Positions 1 through 12,481 of a stretch of 12,481 nt of DNA are shown piece by piece (position 1 is the stretch's first letter; every line of letters begins with the position of its first letter). A model generated the notes under the pieces. The model saw only the letters and a program-made list of their open reading frames with translations, was not told where the DNA came from and did not search any database. Origin of the DNA: Halanaerobiaceae bacterium (GTDB lineage: Bacteria; Bacillota_F; Halanaerobiia; Halanaerobiales; CSSED10-376). The stretch covers positions 1-12,481 of the forward strand of contig PWOK01000320.1 in NCBI GenBank assembly GCA_003557445.1. The letters are read 5' to 3'. The position numbers and the translations under genes were made by a program.

Positions 1-760
1 TAATTTGAGATACAAAGCTAACATAATTCTCTTCCTCTGGAATTTCCAGAATTATCAGGCTGGGACCATTGGCCCTGGCTATATTTTCACCCTCAAAATG
101 ATTATTTATGGCCTCAATTATTTGAAAAGCAGTATCAAAAGAAGGTTCTTTTAAAAGTATATTAAATTGATCCTCTGTACTCTCCATATAAAGACTTTTT
201 TCCACAATAGCACCATTGGGAATCAATCCAGCAGTTGCATGAGTTTGCTCATTTCCGCCCATGGTTATTGCTCCCTGGGCAACTGCATAGATTTCCCCAT
301 CAGCTGCCTGTAAAGGTGTCTGCAGTAAAGTACCCCCTCGTAAACTCTCAGCATCTCCAAATGAATTAACAGTAACATCTATTTGGTCCCCTGAATGAGA
401 ATAAGGGGGTAAAGTTGCTGTAACTATTACTACTGCAGTATTGACACTGCTAATATCGTCAGTACTAACATCAATACCAAAATAGTTTAACATGTTCTGT
501 TTGGTCTGAAGATTTTCCTGGCTTTGATTTGAATCTCCAGTTGCAGCCAATCCAATAACTATTCCATAACCAATTAACTGATTATTTCTTACCCCTTCCA
601 GCCTGGTTATATCACCAATTCTTACTTCAGGATCATTATAGCCTGAATTTATGTTATAATCTTCATCTATTATAATATTATCATTTATTTGTTGTGCTGT
701 CACATTTAAATTTAAACCTAAAACAATTATTATGGTTAAAGAAAATATTATTTTTCTCAT
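1..760 (-). CDS. flgI: Flagellar P-ring protein FlgI, N-terminal 253 residues (3' end off window)
   Basis: FlgI forms the P ring, the periplasmic bushing around the distal rod in the peptidoglycan layer. Reading down from an ATG at 760 gives an open frame that runs off the window edge after 253 complete codons; family members are usually about 350-370 residues, so roughly the last third is missing. Residues 1-22 form a signal peptide (MRKII, hydrophobic core, VTA before Gln). The family signature follows at about 47-77: VRIGDITRLEGVRNNQLIGY, then GIVIGLAATGDS. Further conserved blocks are GDQIDVTVNSFGDAESLRGG (124-143) and AVAQGAITMGG (159-169). An acidic stretch of about 24 residues between the signal peptide and the first motif looks longer than in the enterobacterial protein. 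The start is preceded by an AGGAAAGGAAAGGGG purine tract 5 nt upstream and lies 26 bp after flgH. It is the last gene of the LP-ring set flgA-flgH-flgI. Confidence 0.96.
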   Translation of the reverse strand, partial: MRKIIFSLTIIIVLGLNLNVTAQQINDNIIIDEDYNINSGYNDPEVRIGDITRLEGVRNNQLIGYGIVIGLAATGDSNQSQENLQTKQNMLNYFGIDVSTDDISSVNTAVVIVTATLPPYSHSGDQIDVTVNSFGDAESLRGGTLLQTPLQAADGEIYAVAQGAITMGGNEQTHATAGLIPNGAIVEKSLYMESTEDQFNILLKEPSFDTAFQIIEAINNHFEGENIARANGPSLIILEIPEEENYVSFVSQI

Positions 761-786
761 AACAACCCCTTTCCTTTCCTGATTTG

Positions 787-1374
787 TTAAAACAACCAGT
801 TAAATATTCTGCTAAATAAACCAGGTCTCTGTTTATCAGCAATTACCCCTTCCCCTTTATATTCAATAACTGCATTGGCAACCCTTTCTGAACTTATTTG
901 ATTATCCAGATCAATATCCTGTGGTCGAACAGTTCCTGACAGCTTTATTATCTGGTCTTCTTCATTTATTGTTAATCTTTTTTCACCTTCAATAATTAAA
1001 TTTCCGTTTTCTGTTATTTCAACAATCTCAGTTGTTATTTTTGCTTCAATCATTCCCTGTCTACCAGTTTCCCCATCAGCAAAATCTTCTTCAGAATAGC
1101 CAAACAGAAATGATCCCACCAGATTGAGGAATCCTATTCTTCCCTCTGCTTCAACACTACTGGATTGCACAGTATCTGTACTTGCACTCTGTATGGCACT
1201 GGCATTTTCTTCAATTACTACTGTAACAATTTCTCCTTCTATAAATTCACTTCTGTCAGTAAATAAATTCCTTGAATCTTCTGACCAGAGTGAATTTGCT
1301 GCTAAAGATATTCCACTAAAAAAGACTATAAAGATCATAAGCAAACAGAATATATAAATTTTTTTTGTTTCCAT
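787..1374 (-). CDS. flgH: Flagellar L-ring protein FlgH
   Basis: FlgH builds the L ring that carries the flagellar rod through the outer membrane, so its presence implies a diderm cell. From the ATG at 1374 the protein has 195 residues, somewhat shorter than the enterobacterial protein (about 230). Family motifs are clear: SLWS..SRNLFTDR (28-41), SASTDTVQSSSV (63-74), GNLIIEGEK (124-132), LSGTVRPQDID (145-155), EYKGEGVI (171-178). Residues 1-26 are a signal peptide ending SLAA before Asn. Unlike enterobacterial FlgH there is no lipobox: the only nearby Cys (C10) lies inside the hydrophobic core, so the mature protein is probably not lipidated. A GTG at 1389 would add five residues (MRYRQ), but that GTG sits inside the AAGGTGAG ribosome-binding sequence, so I prefer the ATG. 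It lies 41 bp after flgA and 26 bp before flgI. Confidence 0.95.
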   Translation of the reverse strand: METKKIYIFCLLMIFIVFFSGISLAANSLWSEDSRNLFTDRSEFIEGEIVTVVIEENASAIQSASTDTVQSSSVEAEGRIGFLNLVGSFLFGYSEEDFADGETGRQGMIEAKITTEIVEITENGNLIIEGEKRLTINEEDQIIKLSGTVRPQDIDLDNQISSERVANAVIEYKGEGVIADKQRPGLFSRIFNWLF

Positions 1375-1384
1375 TTGTCTGTAT

Positions 1385-1396
1385 CTCACCTTCCCT
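1385..1396 (-). promoter_or_regulatory. Ribosome binding site of flgH (decides the start)
   Basis: The minus strand reads AGGGAAGGTGAG here. AAGGTGAG matches the 3' end of 16S rRNA (complement of UCACCU) and lies 10-11 nt before the ATG at 1374. The GTG at 1389, which opens a slightly longer frame, is part of this motif and has no properly spaced motif of its own. The spacing to 1374 is a little long, so the choice is likely rather than certain. Confidence 0.6.
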
Positions 1397-1415
1397 GTGT
1401 TATGGAGATAAATAT

Positions 1416-2462
1416 TTAAATTTCAACTTCAACTCTCTTAGAACTTAAAACCAGGGCTGAAAACTGCTGTCCTGAATTAATATTTTCAACTGTTATTATT
1501 TCTCCTATTTGACCCGTTTCTCGGGCCTTAACCTTTACACTGATTTGTAGCTGACCAATAGAAACACTGGCAGTCAACACATCACCCCATCTAACAATTT
1601 CATTCTGATTGATACCAGTATTTGTATTATTATTGGAGAGACCAGTATTCTGTTTATTTAAATCTGTATCTATATAATAACTGGTTAATAAATCTCCTTT
1701 TCCCATGGAAACTTTTATTACACCTTCTTCAAATAAGGGGTCATCAGAATCCTGTATTAACTGTCCTCGGTATTGTGAGTCAATTTCTTTTGTTTCCTGA
1801 GAAAAATCATCTATATTAAGCTGATTACCTCTCATAATATTTCTATTGGCCACAAAAACATCTTTTGTAATTATTATTTCCATACCTGGCAAAAAACGTC
1901 TTTCCCAGATTTCTTCATTTATTATTATTTTTAAAATCAGGGTAACTGTACCGGGAATCTGATCCTGATTTAAAACATCAATTTCTATATCATAATCTGT
2001 TAGAGGTAGATATATATCTCTGTAATCATATAGATGATTAATTATTATTGATTCTCTGTCATAATCAAATTCCTCTGATACCTTATCTTTGATAATATCA
2101 ATTAATTGATCAATTTCCAGTTTCTGTGTTCTTAGAATAACTGAAATCCTTTGTGGTATATTTATTTCTATATTATCATCTGTAAAATCATATTTTTCTA
2201 ACTGATTAACTATTATATCCCGATATAAGATAACCCTGTTATTGGGACCGGGGGAATCTCCCAGATCAATCATCTCAATTTCCTGCAGGTGATCTCCTGA
2301 TAAACCCCTAATCTCTGCAATTTCTCCAAGAAGAATATTTATATCAGTAACTTCAACTTCAGCAGGAATTGTAATATTTATCACTTCAGCCTGAGTGCTG
2401 ACTGAAAAAACAAATATTAAAACCAAAATTAAAGTTACTGTCTTAATATAATTTTTTTTCAT
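1416..2462 (-). CDS. flgA: P-ring assembly chaperone FlgA
   Basis: FlgA is a periplasmic chaperone needed for polymerising FlgI into the P ring. The 348-residue protein starts with a Sec signal peptide (MKKNYIK, hydrophobic 8-20, TQA before Glu at 25/26). Residues about 26-195 are a long N-terminal region rich in beta strands (LLGEIAEI, LGDSPGPNNRVILYRD). A SAF-type domain follows (about 199-262: KDVFVANRNIMRGNQLNIDDF). The C-terminal FlgA module is conserved (about 287-348: NEIVRWGDVLTASVSIGQLQ, GQIGEIITVENINSGQQF, RVEVEI). It is longer than the enterobacterial protein (about 220), because of the extra N-terminal region, as in many non-proteobacterial homologues. Residues 268-288 form an Asn/Gln/Thr-rich low-complexity linker between SAF and C-terminal modules. 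The ATG at 2462 follows a weak GGGGTTA motif and comes 26 bp after flgG. Its position before flgH and flgI fits its role with the ring subunits. Confidence 0.93.
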   Translation of the reverse strand: MKKNYIKTVTLILVLIFVFSVSTQAEVINITIPAEVEVTDINILLGEIAEIRGLSGDHLQEIEMIDLGDSPGPNNRVILYRDIIVNQLEKYDFTDDNIEINIPQRISVILRTQKLEIDQLIDIIKDKVSEEFDYDRESIIINHLYDYRDIYLPLTDYDIEIDVLNQDQIPGTVTLILKIIINEEIWERRFLPGMEIIITKDVFVANRNIMRGNQLNIDDFSQETKEIDSQYRGQLIQDSDDPLFEEGVIKVSMGKGDLLTSYYIDTDLNKQNTGLSNNNTNTGINQNEIVRWGDVLTASVSIGQLQISVKVKARETGQIGEIITVENINSGQQFSALVLSSKRVEVEI

Positions 2463-2488
2463 AATTATCTAACCCCGTTCAGGTATTT

Positions 2489-3277
2489 TTAACGACGTAG
2501 TTGATTGGCAGTAGAAAGCATCTCATCTGCAGCCTGTATGCTCTTAGAATTAGTTTCATAGGCTCTCTGAGCGGCAATCATATTAACCATTTCTTCTACT
2601 ACTTTTACATTTGACATTTCCAGAAAACCCTGAGCAATAGTTCCAAATCCTTCTGTACCCGGACTTCCAACCATAGCTGAACCTGAAGCAACAGTTTCTT
2701 CAAATAGATTTCGTCCCATACTATTAAGTCCTGCAGGATTAGAAAACCTTGCCAGTGTTATCTGGCCTATTTGCTGTGGTTCATTTCTACCTGCAATCTG
2801 AACATTAACTGTACCATCTGAAGTAATAGTTATATCTGTTGCATCCTCCGGAATTTGCATTTGAGGCTGTATAGTATATCCTTCTGAAGTAACTATTGTA
2901 CCATTACTATCCTGTTTTAGTGAACCATCCCGTGTATAGGCAATTGAGCCATCAGGTAATTGAACCTGTAAAAAACCATCTCCTTCTATAACTATATCCA
3001 GGGGGTTTTCTGTGTTCTGTAAATTACCTTCAGTAAATATTTTTTGAGTTGAGGCCACCCTGGCACCATGTCCTTTTTCAATTCCCACCGGAATTTGTGC
3101 TCCTTGAGTATTGGGGCTTCCCGGTTGAGTTATGGTTTGATACATTAAATCCTGGAATCCCACTCTACTCTTTTTAAAGCCTGAAGAATTTACATTGGCA
3201 AGATTATTTGATGTTACATCAATATTTGTTTGTTGTGCATGCATACCTGTTGCAGCTGTCCATAAAGCACTTATCAT
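2489..3277 (-). CDS. flgG: Flagellar distal rod protein FlgG
   Basis: FlgG is the structural subunit of the distal rod, exported by the flagellar type III apparatus and surrounded by the P and L rings. The 262 residues match the usual FlgG length (about 260). The N-terminal rod signature is intact: [32 protein letters not shown] over residues 4-35. The central domain has [15 protein letters not shown] (91-105) and AYTRDGSL (113-120). A typical FlgG segment is [18 protein letters not shown] (175-192). The C-terminal helix is [30 protein letters not shown] (216-245). There is no signal peptide, as expected for a type III export substrate. It follows flgF after a 104-bp spacer holding a predicted folded RNA, and has the strongest Shine-Dalgarno in the window. 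I separate it from FlgF by the better match to FlgG-specific segments and by gene order. Confidence 0.97.
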
Positions 3278-3283
3278 TTTTTT

Positions 3284-3290
3284 CCCTCCT
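3284..3290 (-). promoter_or_regulatory. Strong ribosome binding site of flgG
   Basis: The minus strand reads AGGAGGG followed by six A and the ATG of flgG. This is the closest match to the consensus Shine-Dalgarno in the window. It lies 17 nt downstream of the closing stem of the predicted RNA fold in the same spacer, so it would remain single-stranded in that fold. Confidence 0.75.
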
Positions 3291-3309
3291 GTAAATTTTT
3301 TATTTTTGG

Positions 3310-3382
3310 GGAATAACCATATTGCTGTATCATTCGGTCAACAGCAAATCAGCTTCCTGTTAAGGTCCGGCTGAGTTATTCC
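3310..3382 (-). other. Predicted three-way-junction RNA element between flgF and flgG
   Basis: The minus-strand transcript of this 73-nt stretch contains three nested perfect inverted repeats. The closing stem P1 is GGAAUAAC (3382-3375) with GUUAUUCC (3317-3310), 8 bp. Hairpin P2 is UCAGC (3374-3370) with GCUGA (3353-3349), with a possible extra CCU/AGG pairing in its 16-nt loop. Hairpin P3 is UUGCUGU (3347-3341) with ACAGCAA (3328-3322), closing a 12-nt loop UGACCGAAUGAU. Junction linkers are 0, 1 and 4 nt. The first base of P1 is the last base of the flgF stop codon, and the flgG ribosome binding site lies just beyond the fold. There is no U-run after P1 as an intrinsic terminator needs. 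The fold is read by eye; function is unknown. It could be a cis-regulatory or RNA-processing element, or a stem uncoupling flgG translation from flgF. Confidence 0.5.
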
Positions 3383-4134
3383 TAACGTACCTGGCCAATT
3401 TCATTAACAGCCTGTCCCAGATTTTCATCCATAGCTGTAATCATTTTTTGATTGGCTTCATATAATCGATTTTTCTCAATCATTTTTACCATTTCTTCAA
3501 CAATATTAACATTAGATCCTTCAAGATAATACTGTCTAACCTGAAAATTTTCTGCTAACTCCTCTTCAGCCTCTCCAGTTTGATAAAGATTCTCTCCAAT
3601 TTTTTGTAATAAACTTTGATCATTAAAACTGGCAATACCAATTTGATCTGCACCCTGAAGGCCTGAATGAATCCTTCCTTCAGCATCAATATTAATATCT
3701 TCTCCTTCAACAACCTGAAGTTGTTGCTGGTTGTTCCCCAGAACATGATATCCCTGCTGGGTAACCAGATAACCTTCTGAATCAAGAGTGAAATCTCCAT
3801 TTTTAGTGTAAAAAACCTGGTCTGATCCCTGGATCATAAAAAAACCATCACCTTCAATTGCAAAATCAAGGCCCTTACCTGTATACTGAAATTCTCCTGA
3901 ACTGAAATCAGTATAGGTTTCTTCAAGAAAAACCCCTGTTCCCATTGAGCCAATTTCTTTAGTAGGTTTTTGTTTTTCAATTCTGGACATCATCATCTCC
4001 GGAAAAGATTGTCTTACTCCTTCTTTTCTTTTAAAACCAGTAGTATCAGCATTGGCCAGATTATTTGCCACAACATCCAGATTGCGTCTGGTGGCAACCA
4101 TACTTGAAGCCGCAGTAAATAAACCTTTAATCAT
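3382..4134 (-). CDS. flgF: Flagellar rod protein FlgF
   Basis: FlgF is a rod subunit of the hook-basal-body family, exported by the type III apparatus. It has 250 residues, normal for FlgF. The N-terminal rod motif is FTAASSMVATRRNLDVVANNLANADTTGFK (6-35), followed by the middle-domain pattern GKGLDFAIEGDGFFMIQ (86-102) and YTKNGDFTLDSEGYLV (109-124). The C-terminal helix is QYYLEGSNVNIVEEMVKMIEKNRLYEANQKMI (201-232). There is no signal peptide. It overlaps the preceding YceG-like gene by ATGA (4131-4134), suggesting translational coupling, and has a good GGGGGTGA ribosome-binding sequence. I call it FlgF rather than a second FlgG because it precedes flgG and is more divergent in the centre; in Bacillus the corresponding tandem pair is named FlhO/FlhP. 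Confidence 0.92.
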   Translation of the reverse strand: MIKGLFTAASSMVATRRNLDVVANNLANADTTGFKRKEGVRQSFPEMMMSRIEKQKPTKEIGSMGTGVFLEETYTDFSSGEFQYTGKGLDFAIEGDGFFMIQGSDQVFYTKNGDFTLDSEGYLVTQQGYHVLGNNQQQLQVVEGEDINIDAEGRIHSGLQGADQIGIASFNDQSLLQKIGENLYQTGEAEEELAENFQVRQYYLEGSNVNIVEEMVKMIEKNRLYEANQKMITAMDENLGQAVNEIGQVR

Positions 4135-4577
4135 TTTTTTTCACCCCCTTTGACTGGAATAATAATTTCATCAAGTATCTGACTTAATTTTGTATCCCGG
4201 GAAAATTGATAAGTCCCGGAAGCTATTCTTTTTTCCATATCAAATAAATTTATTATATATAATAGCTCATCTGCATCAACAATATTATTGTTTTCCAGTA
4301 TTCTTGCTGCCTCCAGTGTTGATATTCCGGAAGGTATTTCAATTGTTTTTGTTTCCAGGGTTTCCTGTTTGTTATCATTAATATCATCATATTCAAGTGA
4401 TATCTCATTTCCTGGTTTTTGATTAAAAAGACTATTACTGTTTTCCTGATTATATGCATAATCTGTATTATTTTCCTGGTTATCTGTTCTAAGCATAAAA
4501 ATTCCTGTCATTATTAGAATAATACTAAATATCATGATAATATCCAGACTAAAATATTTTAAAAATTTATCAGACAT
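4131..4577 (-). CDS. Membrane-anchored YceG-like (MltG N-terminal-like) small protein
   Basis: The 148-residue protein has a short cytoplasmic head, one membrane segment (about 11-29, SLDIIMIFSIILIMTGIFML) and an external part. A polar Asn/Gln/Glu-rich linker (31-75) leads to a small folded module (about 77-140): TIEIPSGISTLEAARILENN, YIINLFDMEKRIASGTYQFS, LSQILDEI. That pattern (pro-Gly-Ser/Thr loop, helix, 'G-Y-x-F', final helix) resembles the LysM-like N-terminal region of YceG/MltG transglycosylases. The catalytic part of MltG, which follows in enzymes of about 340 residues, is absent, so an enzymatic role is unlikely. It may bind peptidoglycan near the rod; that is inference. A longer frame starts at 4610, but the ATG at 4577 has AAAAGAGG 9 nt upstream and gives a normal membrane-anchor N-terminus. 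The gene overlaps its upstream neighbour by 8 bp and flgF by 4 bp. Confidence 0.75.
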   Translation of the reverse strand: MSDKFLKYFSLDIIMIFSIILIMTGIFMLRTDNQENNTDYAYNQENSNSLFNQKPGNEISLEYDDINDNKQETLETKTIEIPSGISTLEAARILENNNIVDADELLYIINLFDMEKRIASGTYQFSRDTKLSQILDEIIIPVKGGEKK

Positions 4578-4983
4578 GATTATCAGCCTCTTTTCGGTAT
4601 AATTTAGCAATCAATTCAGTTTCTCTTATACCCATTTTTAATTCACTGGCAATTTGCTGACAATTTTTACCCTTTTTTATCATTTCAAAAACTTCTCGAT
4701 ATTTTTGGGGAATATTCTGTTCCTGTTGATAATTTTTTAGAACATTTTTAAATGATTTATTCTCTTTTTTTTCTGTAGTATTCAATCTGTCAAACTTCTC
4801 TTTAATATCACCCAGTTCCTGGTTTATATTCTGCTGGCTACTGGCTATATTTGTAATAATATGATCCAACTTTTCTTCAATATCATTATTTTCATAACTG
4901 TTTGTTAAGTTATAAATTCTGATTTTTTTATAAATACTAAGAGATAATAAAATAATCCCGACTATAATTAATACATAAGCCAT
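4570..4983 (-). CDS. SwrB-like / DUF6115-type single-pass membrane protein
   Basis: The 137-residue protein has an N-terminal membrane segment (about 2-18, AYVLIIVGIILLSLSIY), a charged helical, probably coiled-coil region (about 35-90), and a small helix-turn-helix-like C-terminus (about 93-131: PQKYREVFEMIKKGKNCQQI, then ASELKMGIRETELIAKLY). This TM plus coiled coil plus 'KGKSxxEIAxxLxxGxxExELLxKL' arrangement matches the group that includes Bacillus SwrB, encoded right after sigD, where it helps activate flagellar export during basal-body assembly. Here the gene lies three genes after the sigma factor. The start ATG has a good GGGAGGG motif 6 nt upstream. The end overlaps the YceG-like gene by 8 bp. 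The SwrB link rests on architecture and position more than on strong sequence identity, so the functional equivalence is tentative. Confidence 0.72.
   Translation of the reverse strand: MAYVLIIVGIILLSLSIYKKIRIYNLTNSYENNDIEEKLDHIITNIASSQQNINQELGDIKEKFDRLNTTEKKENKSFKNVLKNYQQEQNIPQKYREVFEMIKKGKNCQQIASELKMGIRETELIAKLYRKEADNHV
4587..4594 (-). promoter_or_regulatory. Ribosome binding site of the YceG-like gene (decides the start)
   Basis: The minus strand reads AAAAGAGG, 9 nt before the ATG at 4577. It lies inside the end of the upstream SwrB-like gene. It supports 4577 rather than the in-frame start at 4610, which would give a 41-bp overlap and a polar extension in front of the membrane anchor. 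Confidence 0.6.
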
Positions 4984-5015
4984 TTATAACCCTCCCACCT
5001 GTTTGCTCCACTAAA

Positions 5016-5294
5016 TTAAATCTTGAAATCAATTAATGAACCTTTTGAATTTTTCTTTCCTGCCTTATTTTCTGCATTTTTAGTATTTTTATCTGTTGTA
5101 CCATCATCTCTAATTTTTGCTGATTCGGTTTCTTCTTTGGAATTAACTCTTCTCTGTTTTAATTGTTTTTTTTCTTTCATCTGTTGTATAAGATTGGCCT
5201 GTTGTTCTCCAGGTGCCTGAAACTGAATCTGGTTAATTCTATCAACTTCCAGAGACATAGGAAGAAGTGTGTTTGGATTTAGAGGTTGATTCAT
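5016..5294 (-). CDS. Small charged protein of unknown function in the flagellar operon
   Basis: I do not recognise this 92-residue protein. The first third is uncharged and mildly hydrophobic (NQPLNPNTLLPMSLEVDRIN), the middle (about 28-85) is very rich in Lys, Glu, Gln, Asn and Asp and probably disordered or helical, and the end is a short hydrophobic motif GSLIDFKI. There is no signal peptide or membrane segment. It is probably a real gene: the ATG at 5294 has GGGGG 6 nt upstream, it sits 12 bp after fapA and 32 bp before the SwrB-like gene, and all neighbours are on the same strand. Small proteins of this composition are common between the DUF342 gene and later genes of clostridial flagellar operons, but I cannot name a family. 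The amphipathic ends joined by a polar linker suggest an adaptor-type protein (inference). Confidence 0.7.
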   Translation of the reverse strand: MNQPLNPNTLLPMSLEVDRINQIQFQAPGEQQANLIQQMKEKKQLKQRRVNSKEETESAKIRDDGTTDKNTKNAENKAGKKNSKGSLIDFKI

Positions 5295-5306
5295 TTTAAT
5301 ACCCCC

Positions 5307-7136
5307 TTAGATACTCATTGTGCGAACTTCTCCTTTTTCCTCAATAAAGATTGATTTGGTAATTTCATCCTGAACATTATAACTGGCCTTACCAATTGTA
5401 AGTCTTACTCCCGGATAAATTTTTGTATTAATTACAATTCTACCTTCATCAATACGCCTCATTTTATCATTTAATTCTTCCATTTCCAGTTCATTATCTT
5501 CAATCTTTTTTTCCAGCCTTTTTTCTGTTTCCAGGAGTTTTTGGTACATTTTTTCTTTTTCAACAGGTAATTTCCCTATCTTTTTTTTCATTTTTTGTAA
5601 TAATTTTATAGCTCTTTTTGTTTTTAATAAATTTTTATTCATTTTTTTGGTGTCTTCTTTCAATTCCTTAGTTCTTTCCTTTACATCAGGATCATTTCCA
5701 GCTTCAATATGGGTTTCGGTTGCAAAGGCAGATCCAATAATATTGGCCGCAATTTCACGGGCAGCTCTGCTTTTTCCCCCTACTATTAATCCTTTATTTT
5801 TGGTAACATCTATTTTATTGCCGGATATTAATCTACTATGCATTACAGCATCAGTTACATATATATCACCCGATGTTTTTATGTTTCCATTTTCAACAAA
5901 CTTAATTTTCACATCTCCTTCAGCCTCGATTTTCCCTTTCTTTTTACCGATAAAACCTTTATGAACTACAACCTCTCCACCACTTTCAACTGTAGCTGCA
6001 TTTACATTTCCTTTTACCTCTACATTTCCTTCAGCTTTTATTTCAAAACCTTCAAGAACATCTCCCTGAACCTGAACATTTCCAACAAAGTCAATATTTC
6101 CCGTAGAAAGATCCACATTTCCCTTAACATGATGAACCGGAAGTACATCTATTTTATTTCTGCTTTTAACAACCTGACCCGAAATGGTAGCAACCAGTGT
6201 TCTTTCATCTCTAGCTTCAACATTTTTGCCTCCTGGCAGTGATTTATCAACAGGCTTTTTAGGGGGTATTTCTTTACCATCAACCCCTATTCCTGGTTCA
6301 CCTGGTACCGGTTTTTTTATACTTACCAGTGCATCACCGGGCTGTACATTATTGATTAAACCCAGATTGAAAAAATCAATACTGCCATCTTCTCTCTCTG
6401 TACCAATAGAGTCTTCCTTCTGTTCAAAATGGTAAATATATTCTGCATCTTTGCCAGCAACAGGGGCTTTACCCTCTGCAATCAAAACTTTTTCTACAGG
6501 TTCTCTTTTATCAACACTTAATTTTATTTTTTCATCTTTTAAACCGTAAACAACACCTTTTTCTTTTATCTTTTTTTTGAGAGCAGAAAAAGTCAATTTC
6601 TTACCACCGAGTGCAGGTCGATAATCTAAAAAGGCTTTTAGTCTATCCTTACTTATTTCTACATTTACCTCTGCTTCCCGGTCAAGTTCAGGTTTTCTGG
6701 GGGCTATCTTTATCCATTCATCTTCAGCTTCATTAACAGCTTCCTGTAATATTCTCCAGTCAATCTCAACTATTTCTTTTTTATCCAGCTCCTTTTTTAC
6801 AAGTTGATACTGAACTTTTTCTCCCTGACCCTGAGGTGGAATTACTTTAACAAAGACACCATCATCTGCAATTTTAATTTTAAATTCACCATCTATATTA
6901 ATATCATCCAGAAACTCAGCAGGGGATACCTCCTGTTCTTTTTCCTGTTTTTTATTTAATTCAATTTGATATAGATTATTCTTTTTTCCAAAACCTAGAA
7001 AACCCTTATTTTCTTCAATTAATTTAACAATAAGGTCTTCTCTGGTAGCATCAATGTTCTTTTCTTGCAGCTTTATTAATCCCTTTTTTAGAGCATCTTC
7101 TTTGTTTTTAGCTTCAACCCTGATATTCTCCTTCAA
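5307..7136 (-). CDS. fapA: FapA/DUF342 protein with N-terminal Jag-N-like domain
   Basis: The 609-residue protein belongs to the DUF342 (FapA, 'flagellar assembly protein A') family, often encoded next to sigma-28 genes in Firmicutes; its biochemical role is poorly defined. Residues about 3-58 resemble the Jag-N domain (KNKEDALKKGLIKLQ ... VKLIEENKGFLGFGKKN). Residues about 80-485 are the DUF342 region: an N-terminal part ending in PVPGEPGIGVDGKEIPPKKP (276-295), then repeated short beta strands with regularly spaced Gly (KGNVDL, VGNVQVQGDV, EIKAEGNVEVKGNV, GKIEAEGDVKI, NIKTSGDIYV), typical of a right-handed beta-helix. Residues about 485-565 form a long Lys/Glu-rich coiled coil, followed by GRIVINTKIYPGVRLTIG (565-582). 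It starts at TTG 7136, with GGGGGG 6 nt upstream and no in-frame ATG before the Jag-like domain. It begins 17 bp after the sigma gene. Confidence 0.93.
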   Translation of the reverse strand: MKENIRVEAKNKEDALKKGLIKLQEKNIDATREDLIVKLIEENKGFLGFGKKNNLYQIELNKKQEKEQEVSPAEFLDDINIDGEFKIKIADDGVFVKVIPPQGQGEKVQYQLVKKELDKKEIVEIDWRILQEAVNEAEDEWIKIAPRKPELDREAEVNVEISKDRLKAFLDYRPALGGKKLTFSALKKKIKEKGVVYGLKDEKIKLSVDKREPVEKVLIAEGKAPVAGKDAEYIYHFEQKEDSIGTEREDGSIDFFNLGLINNVQPGDALVSIKKPVPGEPGIGVDGKEIPPKKPVDKSLPGGKNVEARDERTLVATISGQVVKSRNKIDVLPVHHVKGNVDLSTGNIDFVGNVQVQGDVLEGFEIKAEGNVEVKGNVNAATVESGGEVVVHKGFIGKKKGKIEAEGDVKIKFVENGNIKTSGDIYVTDAVMHSRLISGNKIDVTKNKGLIVGGKSRAAREIAANIIGSAFATETHIEAGNDPDVKERTKELKEDTKKMNKNLLKTKRAIKLLQKMKKKIGKLPVEKEKMYQKLLETEKRLEKKIEDNELEMEELNDKMRRIDEGRIVINTKIYPGVRLTIGKASYNVQDEITKSIFIEEKGEVRTMSI

Positions 7137-7142
7137 TTTTAT

Positions 7143-7151
7143 CCCCCCACT
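7143..7151 (-). promoter_or_regulatory. Ribosome binding site supporting the TTG start of fapA
   Basis: The minus strand reads AGTGGGGGG followed by ATAAAA and the TTG at 7136. The G-run is well spaced for that TTG. No in-frame ATG occurs within the Jag-like domain, so the rare start codon is probably genuine and may lower FapA output. Confidence 0.6.
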
Positions 7152-7153
7152 TG

Positions 7154-7921
7154 CTATACACCTGCTAATTGCTGTTTTTTGCTACTCAGATGGCCGCGTA
7201 AGCGGTAAATAGCTTTTTTATGTAATTGAGAAACTCTGGCAGCACTTAATTCCAGTGTTTTAGCTATTTCTTCCTGAGTCATATCTTCATAATAATACAG
7301 ACTAATTACCAAAAATTCTTTTCGGGGTAGTTTATCAATTGCTTGAGCTAAAATCTTTTCTTTTTCCTTTCTATCCAATATTTTTTCCGGCTCCTGGTTT
7401 TTGTTTCCTTCAATAAAATCAAATAATTTACCTTCACCCATATCCTGTTGCAGTGATAACCATTGTGCTGAATATAATTTGTTATATATCTTATCAAGTT
7501 TATCTTCAGAAATATCAAGATGTTCCAGTAATTCTTTTTTTGTTGGCTTTCTACCAAGTTCATCTGATAACCTGGAAAATGTTTTTTTTATTTCCTTTCC
7601 TTTACGCCTTAATGAACTGGATAGCCAGTCAAGATTACGAAGATGATCTATAATTGCTCCTCTAATTCTTCTGGTAGCATAAGTAGAAAACTTAATACCC
7701 CTTTTATAATCAAACCTCTCAATTGCATGTATTAAACCAATTATACCAAAGCTTTCCAGATCTTCTTTTTCTATAAAACCAGGTACCAGCATTTTAACTC
7801 TTCCAGCCTGATATTTCACAAGAGAAAGATAGGATAAAATTAATTCCTGTCTTGCCTGTTGATTATTATTTTCTTTAAATTCTTCCCACAGAGAATAATT
7901 ATCAATTTTTTCATTCATCAT
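7154..7921 (-). CDS. fliA: Flagellar sigma factor of the sigma-28 (FliA/SigD/WhiG) family
   Basis: This 255-residue protein directs RNA polymerase to late flagellar and motility promoters. Region 2 is complete (about 28-100): LSYLSLVKYQAGRV, EDLESFGIIGLIHAIERFD, GIKFSTYATRRIRGAIIDHL, then the sigma-28 hallmark RNLDWLSSSLRRKGKEI at 95-111. Region 3 (about 105-160) includes LGRKPTKKELLEHLDIS. Region 4 (about 190-243) holds the -35-binding helix-turn-helix MTQEEIAKTLELSAARVSQL followed by HKKAIYRLR. The length is typical for the family (about 240-260). Two adjacent ATG codons (7921 and 7918) can start it; AAGGAGAAAAA precedes the first. It follows the two-TM gene by 15 bp. In Bacillus the chemotaxis genes lie between flhG and sigD; here they do not. 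I saw no FlgM anti-sigma gene in the window. Confidence 0.95.
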   Translation of the reverse strand: MMNEKIDNYSLWEEFKENNNQQARQELILSYLSLVKYQAGRVKMLVPGFIEKEDLESFGIIGLIHAIERFDYKRGIKFSTYATRRIRGAIIDHLRNLDWLSSSLRRKGKEIKKTFSRLSDELGRKPTKKELLEHLDISEDKLDKIYNKLYSAQWLSLQQDMGEGKLFDFIEGNKNQEPEKILDRKEKEKILAQAIDKLPRKEFLVISLYYYEDMTQEEIAKTLELSAARVSQLHKKAIYRLRGHLSSKKQQLAGV

Positions 7922-7936
7922 TTTTTCTCCTTAATT

Positions 7937-8251
7937 TTAATCATTTTCTTCCCTGTCAAGAACAGGTGGCTCCAGGGGTGAAAATTGATCCTCATTATCT
8001 TCTGTTTTCTCTTTTTTATCATTATCAGGCTTAACTTCTGCTTCAAAATTATTTTCCTGCTGATAGTTAAGCTGTTTGATTATCTCGGGAATAATCGAAA
8101 AAATCAGTGCGATTAAAAAAAATATTATTAATGATTTTAAGCCCCTTTTAAAAACTACTTCCAATTCATTTGCCCTTAATATCCCCGTCAAAACAGTTAT
8201 TATATAGGCAAGGCCTCCACAAATCAAAGATATATATATATTAATCTTCAT
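7937..8251 (-). CDS. Small two-TM membrane protein with acidic C-terminal tail, unknown function
   Basis: I cannot assign a function to this 104-residue protein. It has two predicted membrane helices (about 5-25, IYISLICGGLAYIITVLTGIL, and 39-58, KSLIIFFLIALIFSIIPEII) joined by a short loop containing ANELEVVFKRGLK. A polar, strongly acidic tail (about 60-104) ends with QFSPLEPPVLDREEND. By the positive-inside rule (Lys/Arg at 35-39 in the loop) the loop would be cytoplasmic, placing the tail outside; this is a weak prediction. It begins with TAATG overlap at the stop of the PilZ gene, with AAAGG upstream, so it is translationally coupled to the c-di-GMP receptor, and it precedes the sigma-28 gene by 15 bp. 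Comparable small membrane proteins occur at this position in other Firmicutes flagellar operons. The Pro-rich terminal motif may be a docking peptide (inference). Confidence 0.75.
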   Translation of the reverse strand: MKINIYISLICGGLAYIITVLTGILRANELEVVFKRGLKSLIIFFLIALIFSIIPEIIKQLNYQQENNFEAEVKPDNDKKEKTEDNEDQFSPLEPPVLDREEND

Positions 8252-8898
8252 TATAATAAGCCTTTCTTTCTCAATTCTCTCTGACGATCAAAAATCCAGC
8301 CGATTATATAGTCTCTGGTTCTTGTATCCAGATCTACAAACTCAACCCCTGCAGCCTTACCATTTGCCAATTTATATAATTGCACTACCTTTCCTTTTAT
8401 GGGGATATCCTCAATTTCAGATATATCCAGATACATTTTAATTAATGTATCCAGATTTAAAGTATTATTAAGTATAATTTTTACCCCTCCACCACTTATA
8501 TCAGAGGTAGTTGTTTCCTTATATGTATCAATTTCTTCTCCTTTTTGATTAATACGACAGTATTTTACCTTACGGATAATATCCAATCTGAAAAAATCTC
8601 TTCTCTGAATACGTTTAACTTTTACAGGATGTTTAATTACCAGTAAAGGAATGGGTTCTTTTATCCTGTCAATAATGGTGGATTTAAATTTATATACCGC
8701 AGTATCACCGGTAGTATATATTATCAGTTTTAAATCCTTTCTCAGGGGTAATATTTCCCCTTTATTATAAGGTATAAGTACTTTTATATTTTTTTTATTA
8801 ATTTCAGATATTTTACTCTGGTGTGTGCCCTGATAGGGTCCACTATTTATTTCTATTTCAATTTTCTGATTTACTTTTAGTATTTTTTGAATATCCAT
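8251..8898 (-). CDS. YcgR-like flagellar brake / PilZ c-di-GMP receptor
   Basis: The 215-residue protein combines a YcgR-type N-terminal beta domain (about 5-90) and a C-terminal PilZ domain (about 95-210). YcgR-like proteins bind cyclic di-GMP and slow or bias the flagellar motor by contacting rotor or stator proteins. Both c-di-GMP motifs are intact: RxxxR as RDFFR (100-104, in IQRRDFFRLD) and DxSxxG as DISGGG (133-138, in TSDISGGGVKI). The end of the PilZ barrel, KAAGVEFVDLD (181-191), is also typical. These residues suggest the protein can really bind the dinucleotide. The ATG at 8898 has GGAGGG 6 nt upstream. It lies 13 bp after flhG and overlaps the two-TM gene by one base (TAATG). No diguanylate cyclase or phosphodiesterase gene is in the window. 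Confidence 0.92.
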   Translation of the reverse strand: MDIQKILKVNQKIEIEINSGPYQGTHQSKISEINKKNIKVLIPYNKGEILPLRKDLKLIIYTTGDTAVYKFKSTIIDRIKEPIPLLVIKHPVKVKRIQRRDFFRLDIIRKVKYCRINQKGEEIDTYKETTTSDISGGGVKIILNNTLNLDTLIKMYLDISEIEDIPIKGKVVQLYKLANGKAAGVEFVDLDTRTRDYIIGWIFDRQRELRKKGLL

Positions 8899-8911
8899 TT
8901 AAAGCCCTCCA

Positions 8912-9802
8912 TTAATCACGATTAAAAAGCCCTATTATACGATACATAAAACCTTTTGCTCCTTTAACTGGATTTTTTTCTTTTTTATTTAATAAATTTT
9001 GAGCCAGTTTTGTTAAAGCTTGAGCTGATTTGCTTTCAGGATAAAGTGTTATTAAAGGGTGTTGTTTTTTGACGGCTTCTTTTAACAGATGATCATAGGG
9101 TATATATCCCAATAAAGATATGTCCTGAATCAAATACTGATTAATAACTTTAAACATTCTATCAGCTATTTTGGCTGCTTCTTTTTTAGATTCTACTTTA
9201 TTGACCAGTAATCCCAGCTCTTTTTCTGTTTTATATCTGGAAAAGACTTTAATTAAACTGTAAGCATCCATTACTGATGTTGGTTCAGGTGTAATAACTA
9301 TAATAGTTTCATCAGAACTGATTAAAAAATTAATTACACTCTGATGAATTCCAGCACCGATATCAAGTAAAATTATATCATAATTTAATTCCATATGTGA
9401 AGCAACATTTAGTAATCCTGATACTTCTTTTTTACCAATTTTCATGAAATCTTCTATTCCCGATGTACCCGGAAGTACTTTTAAGCCTTCAGGACCATTT
9501 ATTATAGCATCATTGAAGTTACATCTATCTTCCAGGATGTGTCCCAGATTATACTTTTGAGTCTTACCCATTAGAATATCAATATTAGCCATTCCCATAT
9601 CTGCATCAATTACCAGAACTCTTTCTCCAAGCCTTTGCAGGGCAATCCCCAGATTAATTGTTATATTGGATTTACCCACACCACCTTTTCCACTGGCAAT
9701 AGCAACAATCTGTGTGTTTTGAGTTTTTCCATAATAATTATTATCTATATTATCTTTTCTTTTTTCTACCATTTTCCTTAATTTTGCAGCCTGGTCATTC
9801 AT
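8912..9802 (-). CDS. flhG: MinD-like ATPase FlhG (YlxH), flagellar number regulator
   Basis: FlhG is a membrane-associated ParA/MinD-type ATPase that, with FlhF, controls where and how many flagella are built. From the ATG at 9802 the protein has 296 residues. It starts MNDQAAKLRKM, containing the DQAxxLR motif known in FlhG to stimulate the FlhF GTPase. The deviant Walker A motif is KGGVGKS (39-45, in IASGKGGVGKSNITINL), followed by VLVIDADMGMANIDILMG (62-79) and the Walker B region DIILLDIGAG. The C-terminus is basic and could form the membrane-targeting helix (GAKGFMYRIIGLF). A frame opening at TTG 9814 would add four residues, but the ATG has GGTGA five bases upstream and puts the DQAxxLR motif at the very N-terminus as usual. 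It overlaps the end of flhF by 8 bp. Confidence 0.96.
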   Translation of the reverse strand: MNDQAAKLRKMVEKRKDNIDNNYYGKTQNTQIVAIASGKGGVGKSNITINLGIALQRLGERVLVIDADMGMANIDILMGKTQKYNLGHILEDRCNFNDAIINGPEGLKVLPGTSGIEDFMKIGKKEVSGLLNVASHMELNYDIILLDIGAGIHQSVINFLISSDETIIVITPEPTSVMDAYSLIKVFSRYKTEKELGLLVNKVESKKEAAKIADRMFKVINQYLIQDISLLGYIPYDHLLKEAVKKQHPLITLYPESKSAQALTKLAQNLLNKKEKNPVKGAKGFMYRIIGLFNRD

Positions 9803-10850
9803 ATAAATCACCAAGTATATAATTTATTAATAAATCAGGACTGGCTTTTTTAATATCATCAGGTACATCCTGTCCGTCTGTAATATATGAAAAGGGAATA
9901 TCAAAATTATTTTTAATATTTATTATATCTCCAAATACTGTAGTCTCATCTATTTTTGTAATTAACAATCTATCAGGATTGATTATTGAAAATTTATTGA
10001 TTATTTCTTTTAAATCATCTGTTTTGGTATTCAGACTAATTAATAATTGTTTTTCATCAATAAAGTCCTGATTGCAAATTTCTTTTAGCCTTCCCAGCTG
10101 TATTTGATCATTCCAGCTGCTACCAGCTGTATCTATCAAAACAAGATCAAAATCTTTAAAATCCTCTTTTATGATTTTTTTCATTTCCCTGTTATTATAA
10201 AGAATTTTCAAAGGGATATTTACTATATCACTATATGTTTGCAACTGTTCTACAGCTGCTATTCTATAAGTATCTGCTGTCATCAAACCTACCTTTTTGT
10301 TTTTTTTCAGAGTAAAATCAGCTGCCAGTTTAGCAATTGTTGTTGTTTTACCAATTCCTGTTGGCCCTGCAAATAATACAGTTTTTCTTTTTTTGTTCAA
10401 TTTAATTGGTTGATTAGTACCAATTATTTCTTTAAATTTATTTTGTAAATAATTTATTATTTCTTTTTTGTTTTTAATTTCCTGTTCTTTTATTTCATTG
10501 ATTATTTGCTGATTTAATTCTTCTGCTATACCCTGTTTCTTTAATAAATTATAAACCGGAGTTAAATGTTCTGGTAATTGGTCTGCCTGTTTACTGGATT
10601 TGTTCTGCCAGGTATTATGTAAATTATTTAGCATTTTCTTCAAATCATTAATTTCTTTAAGGGTTTTTTGGGTTTCTCTGTTATCTTCAAGGGCTGCAAG
10701 AACTTCTACTTTGCTTTTTGTGAAAAAACCCATAAATCCACCATGTTTTATTTTTCTGGTATCCAGTATTATTGCATCTGAACCCAGATCTGCTTTTACT
10801 TTAAAAATAGTATCCTGTATTGTTTCTCCAACATATTTTTTTACCTTCAT
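9795..10850 (-). CDS. flhF: SRP-family GTPase FlhF
   Basis: FlhF is a GTPase related to Ffh and FtsY that recruits early flagellar components to the correct site in the membrane. The 351-residue protein has the family three-part build. The basic N-terminal B domain (1 to about 145) starts MKVKKYVGETIQDTIFKVKA and contains GSDAIILDTRKIKHGGFMGFF (23-43). The helical N domain follows (about 95-150). The G domain holds the P-loop GPTGIGKTT (162-170), G2 DTYRIAAVEQL (193-203), G3 DTAG (240-243), G4 TKID (298-301) and the closing motif DGQDVPDD (325-332). All nucleotide-binding motifs look complete. Its ATG directly follows the flhA stop (TAA then ATG), with GGTGA five bases upstream, and its end overlaps flhG by 8 bp, matching coupled production of FlhF and its activator. 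Confidence 0.97.
   Translation of the reverse strand: MKVKKYVGETIQDTIFKVKADLGSDAIILDTRKIKHGGFMGFFTKSKVEVLAALEDNRETQKTLKEINDLKKMLNNLHNTWQNKSSKQADQLPEHLTPVYNLLKKQGIAEELNQQIINEIKEQEIKNKKEIINYLQNKFKEIIGTNQPIKLNKKRKTVLFAGPTGIGKTTTIAKLAADFTLKKNKKVGLMTADTYRIAAVEQLQTYSDIVNIPLKILYNNREMKKIIKEDFKDFDLVLIDTAGSSWNDQIQLGRLKEICNQDFIDEKQLLISLNTKTDDLKEIINKFSIINPDRLLITKIDETTVFGDIINIKNNFDIPFSYITDGQDVPDDIKKASPDLLINYILGDLYE
9808..9812 (-). promoter_or_regulatory. Ribosome binding site of flhG within the end of flhF
   Basis: GGTGA followed by TTTAT and ATG (9802) lies inside the last codons of flhF. The spacing is right for this 5' part of the Shine-Dalgarno complement and supports 9802 over the TTG at 9814, which overlaps the motif. 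Confidence 0.6.
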
Positions 10851-12481
10851 TTATTTCACCGTCCCTATAACCTGTAAATTAATATTAGACTCAAGTTCAT
10901 TAAAACTCAAAACTATTAAATCTTCAAAGGATCGATATGTTAGTTCCTTAATAGGTCTCCTGATAACCGGTGAAGTAATTAAAATAGGTTTATGGCCCTT
11001 CTCCAGAAGATTTTGTACTTCTTTTATTATTTTATTTATTAATTCCCTTGCATTTTGGGGATCCAGAGCAAGATAATTACCCTGATCAGATTTATCAAGA
11101 GCCTGATTTAACTGATCTTCCAGTTCAGGATCCATTGTAACAGCATAAATAGTATTATCTTCTTCAGTAAAAATACTGGTGATCTGCCTTGATAAAGCCT
11201 GACGGACATATTCTGTCAAAACATTTATATCTTTGCTTTTTGCTGCATAATCAGCAAGTGCTTCCAGTATGGTAACCAGATTTTTTATTGGTATTCCTTC
11301 CCAGAGTAAGTTTTGTAAGACTTTCTGTATTTCACCCAGGCTCAATAGGTCTGGCAACAATTCTTCAACTACAGCAGGATATTTTTCTTTAATATTATTA
11401 ATTAAATCCTGTACTTCCTGTCTTCCCAGTAGTTCATGGGCATGGTCTTTTATTATCTCAGTTAAATGAGTTGCCATTACTGAAGGAGGATCAACTACTG
11501 TATAATTTGCCATTTCAGCCCTTTCCTTTTGGTCCTCTTTAATCCAGATAGCAGGGGTATCAAAAGCAGGTTCTTTAGTTTCTATACCTTCGATTTCCTC
11601 AGTTGTTATTTCTGATTTCATGGCCAGATATCGATCAGGGAATAATTTATAACGGGATAATTCCACTCCTTTAAGCTTTATTCTGTAAATATTTGGTTCA
11701 AGCTGTAAATTATCAAGAATACGTACCGGGGGTACTACTATACCCATTTCCATAGCTGTCTGTCTTCTGATCATAGCCACACGATCCAGAAAATCCCCTC
11801 CCTGTTCAGGTAAAACCAGTGATATCAAATTATAACCAACCTCTACCTCTATCTGATCCACTTTTATTAAATCAGTAAGTTCTTCTGTATCAGGAATACC
11901 TCTACCCTGATGTTCAACCTCTTTGCTTTTTTCAGCTTCAGCTGCTTCTTCAGCCACTCCCTGTTTATATAGTAAAAACCCAAGTAAGCCAATAAATAAT
12001 GAAAGTACAAAAAATGGTACCCTGGGCAATCCTGGAACTATAGCCAGTAAAGCAAGTACACCTGAAGCTATCCAGAGAGCTTTAGGCTGTCCGGTTAATT
12101 GCTCTGACATATCAACACCCATATTGCTTTCTGCGGTAGCTCTGGTTACTACCATTCCGGTAGCAGTTGAAATCAATAATGCCGGTATTTGACTGACAAG
12201 ACCATCTCCCACTGTTAAAAGAGTATATGTTTGAGCAGCTTCAGCTATAGCCATATTCTGCTGAGCCATTCCAATTATTAATCCACCTATTATATTTATA
12301 ATTGTAATTATTATTCCGGCTATAGCATCTCCTTTTACAAACTTACTGGCTCCATCCATTGCTCCATAAAAATCAGCCTCTCTCCGAATTTTTTCTCTCT
12401 GTTCTTTAGCCTCTTTTTCATTAATAATACCCGCATTTAAATCTGCATCAATACTCATCTGTTTTCCGGGCATAGCATCAA
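10851..12481 (-). CDS. flhA: Flagellar type III export gate protein FlhA, C-terminal 542 residues (5' end off window)
   Basis: FlhA is the large export-gate component of the flagellar type III system; its membrane part conducts protons and its cytoplasmic ring docks substrates and chaperones. The window opens within the FHIPEP signature, DAMPGKQMSIDADLNAG, so about 150 N-terminal residues of the usual 680-700 are missing. The open frame reaches the window edge; the methionine at 12473 is internal, not a start. Seen in order: the cytoplasmic loop between membrane helices (KIRREADFYGAMDGASKFVKGD), membrane segments around DAIAGIIITIINIIGGLIIG, TVGDGLVSQIPALLISTATG and two hydrophobic helices (about 133-169 counted from 12473), a Glu/Lys-rich linker, and the full soluble domain (from about 205, VEVGYNLISLVLPEQGGDFLDRV; VVPPVRILDN; NYTVVDPPSVMATHLTEI; SPVIRRPIKEL; VLSFNEL). 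The stop lies directly against the flhF start. Confidence 0.97.
   Translation of the reverse strand, partial: DAMPGKQMSIDADLNAGIINEKEAKEQREKIRREADFYGAMDGASKFVKGDAIAGIIITIINIIGGLIIGMAQQNMAIAEAAQTYTLLTVGDGLVSQIPALLISTATGMVVTRATAESNMGVDMSEQLTGQPKALWIASGVLALLAIVPGLPRVPFFVLSLFIGLLGFLLYKQGVAEEAAEAEKSKEVEHQGRGIPDTEELTDLIKVDQIEVEVGYNLISLVLPEQGGDFLDRVAMIRRQTAMEMGIVVPPVRILDNLQLEPNIYRIKLKGVELSRYKLFPDRYLAMKSEITTEEIEGIETKEPAFDTPAIWIKEDQKERAEMANYTVVDPPSVMATHLTEIIKDHAHELLGRQEVQDLINNIKEKYPAVVEELLPDLLSLGEIQKVLQNLLWEGIPIKNLVTILEALADYAAKSKDINVLTEYVRQALSRQITSIFTEEDNTIYAVTMDPELEDQLNQALDKSDQGNYLALDPQNARELINKIIKEVQNLLEKGHKPILITSPVIRRPIKELTYRSFEDLIVLSFNELESNINLQVIGTVK

Follow-up and report, generated by a model that had tools for sequence, protein, structure and literature searches.

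Introduction

Riboswitches of classes I and II for cyclic diguanylate (c-di-GMP) occur before flagellar genes of some clostridia, and both classes are represented in Rfam. In B. subtilis, flagellin mRNA is controlled by CsrA-FliW, and the EAR-type processive antitermination RNA sits in exopolysaccharide operons. Here we describe an RNA element in a flagellar operon of a Halanaerobiaceae bacterium, encoded on the minus strand of contig PWOK01000320.1 (positions 1 to 12,481, referred to as the window), and in its relatives. The element is a pair of conserved hairpins in the spacer between flgF and flgG of the window; in other genomes it stands directly before flgE, the hook gene, or flgG, the distal rod gene. 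It bears on the open problem of how the right amounts and order of rod and hook proteins are obtained within one long operon, and a conserved leader on exactly flgE and flgG, with a specific candidate partner, makes that problem directly testable.

Results

Two hairpins are conserved as RNA

The flgF-flgG gap of the window is 104 nt, whereas the remaining junctions of the operon overlap or are short. A first-pass annotation had remarked on this long spacer and had folded its transcript into a three-way junction of three helices, P1 (8 bp), P2 (5 bp), and P3 (7 bp), with P1 beginning in the flgF stop codon and the flgG ribosome binding site left free by the fold. The coordinates bear out each of these statements (Table 1); a 3-bp helix inside P2 (CCU/AGG), behind a GGA bulge, had been overlooked.

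The conserved core consists of two hairpins, A with the GGA bulge and B with a 12-nt GA loop. In two alignments, 95.2% and 95.4% of the helix cells were paired and 13 of the 15 helix pairs varied on both sides, which upholds the earlier claim of a structured RNA. The covariation score was reached by none of 500 shuffles, and slid partners scored far lower. In a hand-registered alignment of 22 flgG loci, 93.9% of the cells were paired, and again 13 of 15 pairs were changed on both sides. The 12 interior pairs contained 67 G.U cells and 0 A.C cells (the corresponding counts were 16 and 19 for end pairs A1 and B1, and 47 and 28 for the tolerant pair A6, beside the bulge). Because G.U but not A.C was tolerated at the interior pairs, it is the sense transcript, not the opposite strand, that is under selection.

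The earlier expectation that the fold would be more stable than dinucleotide shuffles held for the 73-nt piece (-20.8 kcal/mol, z -2.96, 4 of 200 shuffles equally good) but not in its 101-nt context (z -1.10, 30 of 200 shuffles equally good). Since the signal is weak in the wider context, folding energy alone cannot carry the claim. What decides the matter is the comparison among relatives, which showed that a conserved two-hairpin fold is under selection as sense RNA.

The element precedes flgE and flgG in several phyla

A search with FlgG returned 80 loci, the spacers of which were compared, and the element was present in 23 of them (by reading, by regular expression, and for part of them by model). 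Covariance model R1 was built from an alignment of 22 flgG-only loci; locus L011, which has an inserted second hairpin, was left out, and its match to both R1 and R2 is a composite of that hairpin. R1 yielded 66 matches in 355 kb from 66 sources chosen because they bear the element, and model R2 was built from these matches. The element was found with R1 in 41 of 59 genomes from the class of Halanaerobium saccharolyticum (L001), and with R2 in 23 of 26 genomes from which selected loci came, 169 of 249 genomes from the phylum of Sporomusa malonica (L037), a draw that takes in genomes of the Halanaerobium class, 17 of 39 Riflebacteria, and 12 of 101 Armatimonadota. Stricter filters applied in searches of more than 40 genomes, so that the counts there are lower bounds, and E-values are rough. 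Two of 120 Spirochaetota genomes were matched (E 5e-4 and 1e-3); no flagellar gene lay close to either match, and both were rejected as false positives.

We then classified the gene behind each of 192 aligned matches, which are part of all model matches and include a few rows that repeat one locus. Regular expressions left 13 of the 192 unassigned, and tblastn placed 11 of these. In total, 98 matches preceded flgE, 92 preceded flgG, none preceded flgF, and 2 lay at contig ends; thus, all 190 classifiable matches stand directly before flgE or flgG. Reading of 42 contexts, which overlap the 192, agreed with this placement. The first seed was flgG-only and the models are blind to genes, so the flgE copies emerged from the search itself. 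The element is therefore not confined to the flgF-flgG spacer, where it was first noticed. Among the Riflebacteria matches examined, seven of eight preceded flgE and one lay at a contig end; the eight examined in Armatimonadota were divided equally, four before flgE and four before flgG. Sporomusa malonica (G077) and a Selenomonadales metagenome-assembled genome (G074) each carried four copies of the element, three before flgE-like genes and one before flgG.

At four loci (L219, L264, L266, and L272), flgG is not behind flgF, yet the element is still its leader. The element thus goes with the downstream gene. At all four, it is preceded by what we take to be a SigD-like -10 box, judged by eye against the consensus.

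The unpaired sequences are conserved and P1 is optional

The C-G pairs on either side of the GGA bulge were invariant like the bulge itself among the 186 distinct elements, the inner one being absent only in the mis-registered row L011. In the 12-nt loops of hairpin B (n = 180), G6, A7, and G10 were present in 180 and A3 in 179; positions 2 and 11 were G.A in 168, A.C in 6, and A.A in 6, and positions 1 and 12 covaried. This pattern suggests tandem sheared G.A pairs beneath a hexaloop. Loop length in hairpin A ranged from 2 to 17 nt, and the hairpins were separated by a linker of 0 to 8 nt; with lengths so variable, the region is not coding. The core starts a median of 0 nt (flgE) or 14 nt (flgG) after the upstream stop codon and ends 33 nt (flgE) or 44 nt (flgG) before the start codon, with a median of 19 nt from the end of hairpin B to the Shine-Dalgarno (SD)-like motif (164 loci).

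In the window, P1 outscored 345 of 346 flank swaps. Over 174 loci, a P1 score of at least 14 was reached in 21%, against 6% with swapped flanks, and P1 was absent or weak in most. P1, and hence the three-way junction, is real but optional; the junction drawn earlier stands for the window, but the conserved parts that define the element are the GGA bulge and the 12-nt loop.

Several loci depart from the common form. Three flgE copies (L265, L229, and L173) have a strong P1 with its 5' strand inside the 3' end of the upstream coding sequence, so that at these loci P1 would be opened by ribosomes translating that gene. In three flgE copies of Halanaerobium-class genomes (L126 2531-2578, L128 2496-2543, and L130 2488-2535), hairpin A is kept and loop B is shortened, without the three GA steps. 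The additional hairpin of L011 (3857-3939) has a GA-rich loop and separates the two core hairpins, which gives the appearance of a duplicated loop B.

TIGR02530 accompanies the element

The gene for TIGR02530, an uncharacterised protein, is often the one immediately ahead of flgE. All 169 genomes with the element in the 249-genome sample had TIGR02530, and none of the 32 flagellated genomes lacking TIGR02530 had the element (p 6e-28 for the association, uncorrected for kinship). In Armatimonadota, it was present in 11 of the 12 element genomes. The association is drawn from the relatives' genomes, the window itself contributing a flgG leader alone. Thirteen flagellated genomes had TIGR02530 and no model match (G090, G104, G129, G224, G232, G257, G258, G274, G282, G291, G297, G298, and G299); their flgE and flgG leaders may contain diverged elements. 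TIGR02530 was absent from 14 control genomes, including those of flagellated E. coli, B. subtilis, and T. maritima, and the usual models therefore could not have shown such a system. No functional paper on TIGR02530 was found in a search of literature listings.

After structural re-alignment of the TIGR02530 model, the first 19 rows were RelE/ParE-type toxin-antitoxin proteins or Cami1. DUF4258 was matched weakly by 45 of 82 members (best E 0.007), and the isoelectric point of the domain is about 9.3. The structural model points weakly to a RelE-like protein. A comparison of the sequence profile with solved structures gave only designed TIM barrels (E of at least 0.026) and was disregarded.

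No Rfam family matches

Rfam 15 gave no match above the gathering threshold in the window, 18 related loci, and 20 further loci, and at E up to 10 just two chance matches appeared, both outside the element. This agrees with the earlier remark that the element does not fit the c-di-GMP, purine, THF, or hammerhead consensus. The covariance models of c-di-GMP riboswitch classes I and II, searched through Rfam, likewise had no match in the window and related loci. FlhF is a signal recognition particle (SRP)-type GTPase, which prompted a comparison of hairpin A with SRP RNA; the motifs come in a different order and Rfam showed no match, and the candidate was dropped. No earlier description of the element was found in literature listings, although this does not prove its absence from print; flagellar terms had zero occurrences in word searches of the main texts of PMC11109978, PMC8632094, PMC8040213, PMC6429828, and PMC2864571.

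Genes of the window

The FapA and PilZ/YcgR proteins of the window were confirmed by Pfam, as were FlgF and FlgG, whereas flhA, flhF, flhG, fliA, flgA, flgH, and flgI were assigned by reading their translations. FapA matched PF03961 and PF20250, and its N terminus fell just short of the Jag_N cut-off (24.5 bits, cut-off 25). Because Jag_N occurs in RNA-binding KH proteins, FapA may be a further protein of the operon with a link to RNA. Two overlapping small genes lie directly before flgF, one encoding a short membrane protein that weakly matches YceG/MltG and the other a DUF6115 protein.

Table 1. Element, flanking genes, and other features located in the window
Feature	Position	Strand	Remarks
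Whole element as first drawn, P1 and two hairpins	3310-3382	minus	Helix check, folding
Conserved core, hairpins A and B	3323-3374	minus	R1 match 46.7 bits, R2 61.2 bits; the window is among the seed sequences
Hairpin A	3349-3374	minus	Stem UCAGC 3374-3370 / GCUGA 3353-3349 (P2)
Hairpin A, inner parts			C3369 opposite A3354; inner helix CCU 3365-3363 / AGG 3358-3356; loop UAAC 3362-3359
GGA bulge of hairpin A	3366-3368	minus	Opposite single A (3355); in 186/186 distinct elements
Hairpin B	3322-3347	minus	7-bp stem UUGCUGU / ACAGCAA (P3, 3347-3341 / 3328-3322)
Loop of hairpin B	3329-3340	minus	UGACCGAAUGAU (N-GA-NN-GA-NN-GA-N); 12 nt in 180/186 distinct elements
P1, 5' strand	3375-3382	minus	GGAAUAAC; starts inside flgF stop codon TAG; optional in relatives
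P1, 3' strand	3310-3317	minus	GUUAUUCC; optional in relatives
flgF	3382-4134	minus	Upstream gene; confirmed by Pfam
flgG, distal rod protein	2489-3277	minus	Gene behind the element; confirmed by Pfam
flgG ribosome binding site	3285-3290	minus	AGGAGG; outside the fold
Small gene before flgF	4131-4610	minus	Overlaps the next
Small gene before flgF	4570-4983	minus	
fapA	5307-7136	minus	

Discussion

The element most plausibly acts on the genes that it precedes. The conserved fold stands beside the ribosome binding site of the same two genes, as is expected of a protein-bound leader, and the leader probably helps a protein to control the amounts of hook and distal rod made. The fuller reading, in which the element is a protein-bound, cis-acting leader RNA controlling flgE and flgG with TIGR02530 as the leading candidate partner, we hold at about even confidence. 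The GGA bulge and the GA loop are predicted to form together a protein-binding surface, and the bound protein would raise or lower the translation (or processing) of flgE and flgG, by which the synthesis of hook and distal rod proteins would be matched to assembly. Since the element is also found before flgG and before additional flgE copies located elsewhere, TIGR02530 would act in trans. Counting against this assignment, the link between TIGR02530 and the element could reflect one inherited operon type. Of the functions proposed in the first-pass annotation, a protein-binding leader fits best, and a metabolite switch, for which no general expression platform was found, is less likely; overall, that interpretation is partly supported, and the element is larger in scope than it supposed.

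More tentatively, and with clearly less confidence, we propose that TIGR02530, as a small RelE-fold protein encoded directly before flgE, would recognise the two-hairpin leader shared by flgE and flgG and tie distal rod and hook synthesis, through translation or site-specific cleavage, to the state of assembly or export. Together, the protein and the RNA would be a post-transcriptional system devoted to the flagellar shaft, not described before, in at least three phyla. If true, the link would give the TIGR02530 family a role.

A constitutive function is unlikely but deserves consideration: the folded leader might mark a site of RNA processing or stabilisation, or boost translation, and so lift the expression of flgE and flgG above that of their operon neighbours. 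The hook and distal rod proteins are the most abundant rod-hook proteins, and the restriction of the element to their genes, as well as its position between the upstream stop codon and the ribosome binding site, would suit such a function. However, the sequence of the GGA bulge and GA loop is kept across phyla, beyond what a bare stem would need.

That a small molecule (e.g. a nucleotide messenger) binds the two hairpins and controls flgE and flgG translation as a riboswitch appears improbable. The fold is compact with conserved unpaired bases, P1 closes it in a subset, and in L011, L008, and L017 the 3' strand of P1 could by eye pair with the SD sequence. General anti-SD switching is unlikely, since pairing between flank and SD was near chance over 160 loci (mean z -0.01 for flgE and -0.21 for flgG), reaching the 5% level in 5% of flgE and 12% of flgG loci, a mild flgG excess. 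Besides the want of an Rfam match, neither a terminator nor a promoter was found in the flgF-flgG spacer of the window, and the mid-operon location at single genes also speaks against a riboswitch. L022 has, unlike the other loci read, a terminator-like hairpin and T run, seen by eye, between the element (2146-2197) and flgG (2287), and attenuation is possible there.

It is very doubtful that the element is a CsrA-binding leader with GGA as the CsrA site. The GGA is invariant, and CsrA was found in 143 of the 169 element genomes and in 41 of 59 genomes of the L001 class; judging by their contig numbers, the other 26 element genomes are probably fragmentary, so that CsrA may be missing there through incompleteness. 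But CsrA showed no tracking of the element when flagellated genomes were compared (present in 143 of 169 with the element and 35 of 45 without, p 0.27; 4 of the 180 CsrA matches in this comparison fall below the family cut-off). CsrA sites have GGA in the apical loop of a hairpin, whereas here it lies in a bulge, and the GA loop would be left unexplained. A functionless chance fold, to which the shuffles matching its energy in the 101-nt context might point, is contradicted by the covariation, the sense-strand wobbles, and the gene association, and has a negligible probability.

Among known systems, protein-binding mRNA leaders such as those of ribosomal protein genes resemble the element in having conserved hairpins immediately ahead of the ribosome binding site of the gene under control; the element shares no sequence or Rfam match with them, its copies serve two flagellar genes, and its partner is only a candidate. 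The c-di-GMP riboswitches are similar as structured RNAs in flagellar operons, and the P1-closed junction of a subset of elements adds to the likeness, but the element has no Rfam match, no general expression platform, and none of their conserved motifs. CsrA-FliW also provides post-transcriptional control in flagellar assembly through a GGA motif, whereas the element has its GGA bulged, does not track with CsrA, and targets flgE and flgG, not flagellin. EAR is likewise a conserved RNA within a long operon; the element differs in being tied to particular downstream genes, in also leading a first gene, and in having no Rfam match. By every comparison made, the element is a new family, but cis-acting leaders as a broad class are already known.
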